From Fimbriiglobus sp. (GTDB taxonomy: Bacteria; Planctomycetota; Planctomycetia; Gemmatales; Gemmataceae), in NCBI GenBank assembly GCA_025351325.1, contig JANXWE010000115.1:1-43397 (forward strand): 43,397 bases of DNA, written 5' to 3'. The notes under the pieces were generated by a model that saw nothing but the letters and a program-made list of their open reading frames with translations, searched no databases and had not been told where the DNA came from. Both the position numbers and the translations under genes were made by a program. Shown here piece by piece: positions 1 to 12,487 of this stretch. Within the stretch, counting starts at the first letter, position 1; each line of letters begins with the position of its first letter.

Positions 1-1370
1 GCCACGCACGCCACGAGGCCGGCGAAGCGGTAGTAGTAGACCATGAATATTAGTACAGCGGCGAACGATGCGAAGACCGAGATCAGTCCCTTGCGGATGG
101 TCGATTCACCGAGAGTCGCCCCGACGGTGTTCTCACTGACCGGGTCGGGCTTGAGTTCCGCATTCAAGTTGCCCGACCGCAGGATGTTGACGAGTTGGTT
201 GACGGCTTTTTGGGTGAAGCTGCCACCGCTGATGATTCCTGAGCCGTTAAGGACAGTACTCAGCATTGGCGCAGAAACGATTTTGTCGTCCATAATGACT
301 GCAAGACTGCGAACATTGCCATCAGTCGGCTTGTTTCGCTCGGTCAGATCGCGAAACATTTTCGACCCGGTGGGCGTTTCAAAAGTGAATCCGACAGCGG
401 GTTTGGTCTCTTTGTCCTGCTCAGATCTGGCCGAAATGCGGACATCTCCGATGACGCGGACGTTGTCCGCTGTCGAAACGCGTGTCAACAAAAAGTATTC
501 GACATCCTTGTCCGAATCTTCCTTTGTTGTTGCAATCTTGGAATAGACTCTGCTGTAAAATATGTAGGTCACCATTTTACCAGGGTGATCACCACCAGCG
601 GGGCTGACGTGTAGATAAGTCTTGTTTCGTGTCTTTTTCAACTCGGGGTAGAGCCAAATAGGGTCGCCCCCCAGACTGGACTTTTTTGGAGGGCTTTTTT
701 CAGCAAACTCGTTGCTCAGCCCCAACCCGATTCTTTCTTCTTTACCCAACTCCACCCACTCGTAGCGGGCATCAACTTCATCCCCCGCCGCTTTGACCTT
801 GTACGTGGATGGTGGCGAAAGTGGTGTTTTGCCGGATTTTGCACGCTCCATCAGTGACGTGTCTCCAGCCGGAGCACTATCGATCATCCGTCTTGCTTCT
901 TCAATTCCTTCACGATCGTCACCCATGTTCGCCAGAATGCGGAATTCGAGCACGCCGGTCTGTTTGACTTGGTTGCGTACATCCTGCACAAATTCTTCGT
1001 TCGGCGCTTCTTTATTGCCCCCGGTGCTACCCGCGAACGGCAAGATGATTTCGACGCGGCTGTTGCCGATGGGCCGCACGACGACGTTCTTCAGGTCGGT
1101 CGGGTCGATCCGTTTCTTGAGCTTCTCGGCGAGTTGTTTGATGTCGTCGCCGGTGAGTTCGCGGGCGCCTTCGCCGCGCGCTATCGATTTGTCGTCCATC
1201 CGCTCGCGGTCGACTTCGTAGATGAGGATGGTTCCGCCGGCCAGGTCGATCCCCCGGCGGAAGCCGATCTGTCCGTTCGACTCCTTCCAGAAGGCGTAGC
1301 CCGCGAAAATGGCGGCGATGATCGTCGGCACGAGGCAGAGAATCAGGCGAGTCGTGAATTTCGGTCGCAT
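1..1370 (-). CDS. secD: Protein translocase subunit SecD, N-terminal part (runs off the window)
   Basis: SecD is the membrane partner of SecYEG that uses the proton gradient to help pull secreted proteins across the inner membrane. The frame is open from the ATG at 1370 to the window edge (456 codons, no stop), so the C-terminal membrane bundle and any fused SecF lie outside. The visible part has a first membrane segment at about residues 8-27, then GIDLAGGTILIYEV, which corresponds to the SecD 'GLDLxGG' signature, then a large periplasmic region with AVIMDDKIVSAPMLSTV and the turn ISGGSFTQKAVNQLVNILRSG, both typical of SecD. A second membrane segment starts near residue 430. The insert between about residues 150 and 300 is long and charged. 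It lies 58 bp downstream of yajC and is probably co-transcribed with it and tgt. Confidence 0.95.
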   Translation of the reverse strand, partial: MRPKFTTRLILCLVPTIIAAIFAGYAFWKESNGQIGFRRGIDLAGGTILIYEVDRERMDDKSIARGEGARELTGDDIKQLAEKLKKRIDPTDLKNVVVRPIGNSRVEIILPFAGSTGGNKEAPNEEFVQDVRNQVKQTGVLEFRILANMGDDREGIEEARRMIDSAPAGDTSLMERAKSGKTPLSPPSTYKVKAAGDEVDARYEWVELGKEERIGLGLSNEFAEKSPPKKSSLGGDPIWLYPELKKTRNKTYLHVSPAGGDHPGKMVTYIFYSRVYSKIATTKEDSDKDVEYFLLTRVSTADNVRVIGDVRISARSEQDKETKPAVGFTFETPTGSKMFRDLTERNKPTDGNVRSLAVIMDDKIVSAPMLSTVLNGSGIISGGSFTQKAVNQLVNILRSGNLNAELKPDPVSENTVGATLGESTIRKGLISVFASFAAVLIFMVYYYRFAGLVACV

Positions 1371-1428
1371 GGAATACTCGGAATAACGCCGGCGGCACTG
1401 CCCCAGCTCGAATGGGTGGAGACGTCGA

Positions 1429-11371: not shown

Positions 11372-11470
11372 GGATGGGTGGGGGCCTGACAGACCTGAAG
11401 GGGTGAACCTGGTCAGGCCGGAAGGTGCAGCCATAAGCGTTGGAGGGTGCTGCTCAGGGCACCCCCATCC
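11372..11470 (+). ncRNA. ffs: Signal recognition particle RNA (small bacterial type, 4.5S-like)
   Basis: The apical domain is diagnostic: GGTCAGGCCGGAAGGTGCAG at 11411-11430, with the GGAA tetraloop and the asymmetric Ffh-binding loop, followed by CCATAAGCG. The ends pair to close the long hairpin: GGATGGG at the 5' end with CCCATCC at the 3' end, and GGGGCCTGA with TCAGGGCACC. The length of about 99 nt matches the small bacterial form without an Alu domain. The RNA joins Ffh to target nascent membrane proteins to the Sec machinery, whose SecD and YajC are in this window. Exact ends are estimated from the stem. Confidence 0.93.
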
Positions 11471-11497
11471 TTCCCCGCCCCGGCGCTTGATGACGAT

Positions 11498-11531
11498 GAA
11501 GCCGGAAACTCGATATCGGGTTTCCGGCTTC
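11498..11531. terminator. Perfect 12-bp hairpin between the SRP RNA and the convergent toxin-like gene
   Basis: GAAGCCGGAAAC at 11498-11509 pairs exactly with GTTTCCGGCTTC at 11520-11531 around a 10-nt loop. It lies between two converging transcripts: the SRP RNA ends 27 bp before it and the minus-strand gene ends 7 bp after it. A bidirectional terminator is likely, though there is no long T run on either side. Confidence 0.6.
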
Positions 11532-11538
11532 CACTCGT

Positions 11539-11886
11539 TTACAGATCGACAATCGGCCAAGTTTGATGAGCATTCCACTCATCTGGATGGATCACCCAAT
11601 CGGGCAAGCGTTCCAAGGAGCGAATCAACACCCGCCGCACGAGAATTCTCTCGGGCTCGATTAAGAGTTCGAATAGCACCTCGACGAGCGAAGTCGACCC
11701 GCCCTCAGATCGGCACCAAAGCCCCGATTCCAACCCGGGTGGACGTGGGAACGATGTCGGCCGAGAACAAGTCTGGTAATTGGCGGATATTCTTGAGAGC
11801 TGTTCCAAGACAGCAGGCCGCAAATCGGCTGTGACCTGTGGGAGATCGTCGACCGCGCGTTGGCTGAGCGAAAGTGGCGTGCTCAC
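11539..11886 (-). CDS. Small RelE/ParE-like protein, putative toxin of the Panacea pair
   Basis: The predicted product is 115 residues with a GTG start at 11886. That start overlaps the TGA stop of the Panacea gene in the sequence GTGA, a classic coupled junction. A longer frame to 11946 exists but would overlap the upstream gene by 64 bp. The sequence layout fits a RelE/ParE fold: two N-terminal helices (LSQRAVDDLPQVTADLRPAV, then LEQLSRISANY), then a beta region (FPRPPGLESGLWCRSEGG, TSLVEVLFELLIEPERILVRRVLI). The C-terminus LPDWVIHPDEWNAH is unusual. I do not recognise a specific named family. The toxin role is inferred from gene order, size and coupling to an antitoxin-type domain. It converges on the SRP RNA gene. 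Confidence 0.6.
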   Translation of the reverse strand: MSTPLSLSQRAVDDLPQVTADLRPAVLEQLSRISANYQTCSRPTSFPRPPGLESGLWCRSEGGSTSLVEVLFELLIEPERILVRRVLIRSLERLPDWVIHPDEWNAHQTWPIVDL

Positions 11887-12419
11887 CAGTTCAAAACCTG
11901 CTTCAAATGATCGAGCGAAACTACCTTGTCGTCGGCTTGAGCCCAAGAACCGGGTTGATCCCCTGTTCGCTTTTGAAATTCGTCCCCGAAGAAGGACTTC
12001 AACTCATCGACAGGAATCGTTTGATTCCCCCGGCCACCAGAGTCGGGCTTGAAATGATCGCGCCAAGGGCGTTCGGCATGAGACTTCTCACGCAACCCGC
12101 ACGCGGAGAACTGTCGGTAGTGATCCCAGACCTGTTCGACCGCCGCGCGTTCGACCGGAGCCATTTCGACCGGCAGCATCGGATCGGGCAGCGGAGCCGA
12201 GCCTTGGCCCCACGGTTGGGCATACACATCCGGCACGACCGGGCCGTGCTTCCAAGCCACGATGCGCTCGGGAAAGAGAGCGACACCGTACCAAGCGAGA
12301 TGCCAACCTTGGCAGTAATAAAGAAGTTTATGAAGCTTCATCGCCGTCATCGGTTCCGGTTCGGGACCGATGACGGCGAGGCGGATCAAGTGTTGGGCGA
12401 CGGCCGGTGCGGTAGTCAT
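11883..12419 (-). CDS. Panacea-domain (SocA/DUF4065-type) protein, putative antitoxin
   Basis: The 178-residue product carries the Panacea signature: MTAMKLHKLLYYCQGWHLAW at about residues 24-43, then LFPERIVAWKHGPVVPDVY at 49-66, which match the conserved 'KL.KLlYy.q...l...g.pLf...i.aw.yGPV....' pattern. In known systems this domain neutralises many unrelated toxins, and SocA links its toxin SocB to a protease. The C-terminal half (about 95-178) is less conserved and may confer partner specificity. It is the first gene of a two-gene operon with the RelE/ParE-like gene. A palindrome with a TATAAG element lies 36-68 bp upstream of its start codon. Whether it is an antitoxin or a phage-type GepA protein rests on the partner gene. 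Confidence 0.8.
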   Translation of the reverse strand: MTTAPAVAQHLIRLAVIGPEPEPMTAMKLHKLLYYCQGWHLAWYGVALFPERIVAWKHGPVVPDVYAQPWGQGSAPLPDPMLPVEMAPVERAAVEQVWDHYRQFSACGLREKSHAERPWRDHFKPDSGGRGNQTIPVDELKSFFGDEFQKRTGDQPGSWAQADDKVVSLDHLKQVLNW

Positions 12420-12454
12420 TGCGGTGCTATGGAAAGAGGTTGCTTTATATTTAT

Positions 12455-12487
12455 CTTATACTGTGGAATCCGAGTTCGCAAACTCGG
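12455..12487 (-). promoter_or_regulatory. Putative promoter and palindromic operator of the Panacea operon
   Basis: On the minus strand a perfect palindrome of 7-bp arms and 4-nt loop (CCGAGTT-TGCG-AACTCGG, plus-strand positions 12470-12487) is followed after 9 bp by TATAAG (12460-12455), a good -10 hexamer. The palindrome falls where the -35 and spacer would be, as expected for an autoregulatory operator. The start codon is at 12419. A terminator function for the gene ending at 12515 is an alternative, but there is no T run. Confidence 0.5.

Follow-up and report, generated by a model that had tools for sequence, protein, structure and literature searches.

A probable PanAT-type toxin-antitoxin module with a predicted RelE/ParE-fold toxin in a planctomycete bacterium

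Introduction

The closest described relatives of the gene pair reported here are the PanAT systems, in which a Panacea-domain antitoxin and its toxin are encoded by a coupled two-gene operon, more commonly with the antitoxin first (943 vs 325) (Kurata et al. 2022, PMC8832971; Ernits et al. 2023, PMC10440598). Prior mutational work on Panacea has addressed a membrane PanT, Doc, toxSAS, and MqsR, the antitoxin of the last having a separate zinc-binding neutralising domain. Doc is neutralised by C-terminal helices of the C. doosanense PanA, whereas for a membrane PanT the neutralising part is the Panacea core itself (PMC10440598).

Here, we analyzed a 43,397-nucleotide stretch of planctomycete DNA (hereafter, the window) that contains two overlapping minus-strand genes, a panA-like gene followed by a panT-like gene. 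The pair resembles PanAT in its Panacea antitoxin, its coupled two-gene operon, and its antitoxin-first order, but differs in that its toxin matches no curated family and none of the HTH, PAD1, or zinc-binding domains of some PanAs was found in its Panacea protein. With RelBE, ParDE, YefM-YoeB, and HigBA, it shares the predicted fold of the toxin (Z 6-11 over ~80 residues), whereas its antitoxin is a Panacea protein, rather than RelB, ParD, YefM/Phd, or HigA, and its toxin has an additional conserved C-terminal W-x3-P-x-E-W (W97-W104), a part of the model predicted with low confidence. Finally, the type VI system SocAB likewise uses a Panacea-domain antitoxin, but the protein in the window scores far under the NCBIfam SocA cut-off, and its partner is predicted to have a RelE/ParE fold.

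Results

The Panacea protein. The original prediction described a Panacea gene that precedes a 115-residue gene and is joined to it by a GTGA overlap; both genes, their order, and the overlap, in which the GTG start of the panT-like gene meets the panA stop, were all recovered (Table 1). The Panacea domain occupies residues 29-119 of the panA-like product (PF13274, E 3.6e-17, 63.7 bits vs the Pfam cut-off of 25.7), the AlphaFold2 model of which has a pLDDT of 89. No HTH match was found with Pfam, and, given that no second domain was matched, the protein is best described as a standalone Panacea, the C-terminal tail of which is 59 residues long. That the pair is a toxin-antitoxin module in which this protein acts as SocA does (type VI), handing the toxin over to a protease rather than blocking it, seems highly improbable: SocA is itself a Panacea protein, and the NCBIfam SocA antitoxin model (NF047745) does align to residues 6-98, but the 42.5 bits obtained fall far under the cut-off of 190, and direct binding has been demonstrated for several PanAT pairs, with those tested by pull-down having formed direct complexes (PMC8832971). 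As a separate observation, the best structural match to the Panacea model was chain D of 7yk3, the DarTG complex of M. tuberculosis (Z 7.8, 127 residues, rmsd 4.9), followed only at Z 3.2 by the next; a fold link between Panacea and part of DarG is thus possible at the level of the predicted model.

Table 1. Features of the window, and Panacea neighbours at the three other Panacea loci of the same genome (positions there refer to the locus named).
Feature	Position	Strand	Description
Bacterial small SRP RNA gene	11377..11472	plus	RF00169, 37.5 bits (gathering score 40), E 9.8e-7, full model length
Hairpin with 12-bp stem	11498..11531		Directly past the panT stop; fold of 11490-11545, -26.4 kcal/mol, z -6.3
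panT-like gene	11539..11886	minus	115 aa, GTG start; predicted RelE/ParE fold, predicted toxin
panA-like gene	11883..12419	minus	178 aa, ATG start; standalone Panacea (SocA/DUF4065), predicted antitoxin
TATAAG, candidate -10 element	12455..12460	minus	Inside an A+T-rich patch
Perfect 7-4-7 palindrome, CCGAGTT-4-AACTCGG	12470..12487		In the 95-bp gap between the upstream-gene stop (12515) and panA
L001, Panacea neighbour	978..1391		137-aa protein
L002, Panacea neighbour			Protein with strongly hydrophobic segments
L004, Panacea copy at contig edge			Beside a 79-aa frame

The partner protein. The RelE/ParE superfamily is known to diverge beyond the reach of sequence profiles, and a profile match is not required of its remote members. 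The partner had no profile match in Pfam, NCBIfam, PHROGs, or PADLOC, and five relatives of it were likewise without a Pfam match. Its layout had been read as RelE/ParE-like from the letters alone, and the predicted structure bears this out: an AlphaFold2 model built from a six-sequence alignment (pLDDT 81.7, pTM 0.75, with confidence lowest at residues 97-105) has the element order E5-7 H9-17 H23-39 E52-59 E67-76 E81-91, that is, the beta-alpha-alpha-beta-beta-beta fold of the superfamily. Foldseek placed four RelE chains on top (probability 1.00, E 0.002-0.015), with no match at E < 0.001, and VIA-align 2 ranked M. tuberculosis RelE2 first (3g5o_C, Z 11.1, rmsd 1.7, 80 residues) and mycobacterial RelE1 second (Z 10.4), followed by ParE, YoeB, and RelE entries at Z ~9, with YafQ and HigB entries also listed. 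Among its 50 rows, TrmO (Z 6.6) was the only one not recognisably of the RelE/ParE superfamily, among which we counted Cami1, presumed to carry a RelE domain.

The C-terminal motif that had been described as unfamiliar, LPDWVIHPDEWNAH, is present, and alignment of the six full-length members of the family showed E69, R84, W97, P101, E103, and W104 to be invariant. The partner profile did not match the YafQ-like toxin of a sister genome described below; against the 101-aa proteins encoded beside other Panacea genes, it gave a collinear, nearly full-length alignment with a probability of only 10%. Phage and plasmid records held no convincing relative, the viral contigs searched yielded none, and no match in the viral structure library passed E 0.001. 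A search of the profile against PDB sequences returned a single marginal match, the plant protein At2g34520 (E 0.0067), which we judged to be due to chance. As judged by sequence, the predicted toxin belongs to a new family that is absent from the profile libraries searched, thereby adding to the RelE/ParE-fold toxins one known so far only from the Gemmataceae.

Conservation of the pair. A search of 95 genomes of the family Gemmataceae recovered six partner copies beyond the window, in four genomes (G088, G026, and two copies each in G006 and G094), of which five are full-length (23-53% identical) and one, in G006, is truncated (L028). At all seven loci, in five genomes, the partner gene comes immediately after a Panacea gene, which it overlaps by the four bases NTGA (GTGA, TTGA, or ATGA); the genes flanking the pair vary among the loci examined. 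Given that the arrangement and overlap recur in the six further copies, the pair is not a chance arrangement. Of the outcomes that would have refuted the original prediction, two were examined, a partner devoid of a toxin fold and a pair that is not kept as neighbours elsewhere, and neither was observed. Codon differences were greatest at position 3 in comparisons with L008 and L009, and positions 1 and 3 were equal in the comparison with L010. Among 392 sampled genomes of the phylum, there was one weak additional partner match, with no Panacea gene seen beside it.

These copies also bear on whether the 115-residue protein, despite its predicted fold, might be a non-toxic remnant or regulator in a pair that has decayed or been repurposed. 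The truncation of L028, together with the eight PanTs that were not toxic when tested in E. coli (PMC8832971), would fit such an account; however, six copies, including that of the window, are complete and share E69, R84, W97, E103, and W104 without exception, and the coupled overlap is retained in every partner copy, which leaves this account unlikely.

The region upstream of panA. The original prediction also placed a palindromic, autoregulated promoter upstream of the pair. The 7-4-7 palindrome and the TATAAG exist, but autoregulation through them is unsupported, given that relatives lack this palindrome, that the window is rich in comparable ones, and that a search of the Panacea protein turned up no DNA-binding domain. 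Specifically, the sequence occurs once in the genome, none of six relatives of the pair has it (some have palindromes of other sequence), and the window contains 34 perfect palindromes with 7-bp arms and loops of 3-10, one or more of which falls within 4.7% (~1 in 20) of its 95-bp stretches. A scan detected no sigma-70-like promoter, and the RNA fold at the palindrome is a hairpin with a z of only -1.1. The palindrome is thus a possible operator or weak hairpin with no support for a function; a hairpin that follows the upstream gene is an equally good reading of it, though it has no T-run behind it.

The genomic setting. The pair is flanked by prkA on one side and, on the other, by an uncharacterised gene and then a UbiE-like methyltransferase. 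The SRP RNA gene marks the edge of the slot occupied by the pair; copies elsewhere scored 39.8 in G046 (under the gathering score) and 46.1 in G047, where it follows prkA (passing). Between this gene and the convergent pair, the hairpin directly past panT, which is a single copy and missing from three genus relatives, is probably a terminator, to judge from its predicted folding. The same-genus genome G046, with a PrkA 97% identical, shares the sequence of the window up to 11485-11488 and then continues into a different two-gene module (L083 3687-4300), the toxin of which is YafQ-like (PF15738, E 2.1e-7). That module lies between copies of a 43-bp direct repeat of the SRP RNA 3' end (window 11443-11485), an arrangement suggestive of a duplicated attachment site. 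In the window, the repeat occurs only once; hence, it does not demonstrate insertion at the window locus. What comes after the SRP RNA gene in G045 and G047 is, to judge from the sequence, an ABC-transporter ATPase gene.

Discussion

Taken together, the Panacea domain, the predicted RelE/ParE fold, the pairing of all seven copies with an NTGA overlap, the published Panacea pairings, and the lengths of the Panacea tails make it likely that the pair is a type II toxin-antitoxin module that, with its RelE/ParE-fold toxin, belongs to the published PanAT kind. Counted against this are the lack of any profile match to toxin families, the Foldseek E-values above 0.001, the truncated L028, the post hoc nature of the tail correlation, and the lack of toxicity of eight PanTs tested in E. 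coli (PMC8832971). Contrary to the original proposal, the kind of pairing is not new, given that ParE-domain and MqsR-like toxins were already listed beside Panacea (PMC8832971).

As a type II module, the pair would operate as follows. The Panacea protein would be made first, from the same transcript as the 115-aa toxin, and would bind the toxin and keep it inactive, with the inhibiting element most likely being the 59-residue C-terminal tail packed on the toxin and the Panacea core serving as a scaffold or sensor. We infer that the 115-aa protein is toxic and is neutralised by the Panacea protein; it may act at the ribosome as an mRNA endonuclease, in the manner of RelE, HigB, and YoeB, or on DNA gyrase, in the manner of ParE. 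We lean, weakly, toward nuclease action; the predicted fold itself does not separate mRNA from gyrase as the target. The pair offers a simple test case for how a standalone Panacea neutralises a RelE-fold toxin.

The genome that contains the window has four Panacea loci, and at the other three, the neighbours are unlike the window partner (Table 1). Across the family, Panacea partners include MazF/PemK-like proteins (E 2e-7), membrane proteins, unassigned proteins, and 101-aa proteins that are weakly ParE-like (E 0.096, below the cut-off), a variety that represents partner swapping, as in PMC8832971. Tail length, defined as the residues past the conserved PW/AW of the Panacea protein, is 59-65 aa in all seven PanAs paired with the window-type partner, 73-80 aa where the partner is RelE-like (101 aa), MazF-like, or, in one case, a small soluble protein of 100 aa, and 29-48 aa where it is a membrane protein or has 137-279 aa. 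C-terminal tail length in this set tracks partner class, which suggests that the tail is the neutralising arm, in agreement with the findings for the C. doosanense PanA (PMC10440598). Given that the tail classes were drawn post hoc on related sequences and that divergent loci were excluded (e.g., L050, L053, L055, L062, L066, and L073), the correlation is a lead, rather than a test. One might speculate further, though we regard it as doubtful, that the tail is an exchangeable neutralising arm matched in length and sequence to the toxin class and that the region past the SRP RNA gene is a swap slot for two-gene modules. Separately, a partner of 137-147 aa, which ends in W(F/W)D-x-x-HEI-x-P and is without a Pfam match, recurs beside short-tailed Panacea proteins at L001 (978-1391), L054, L059, and L067.
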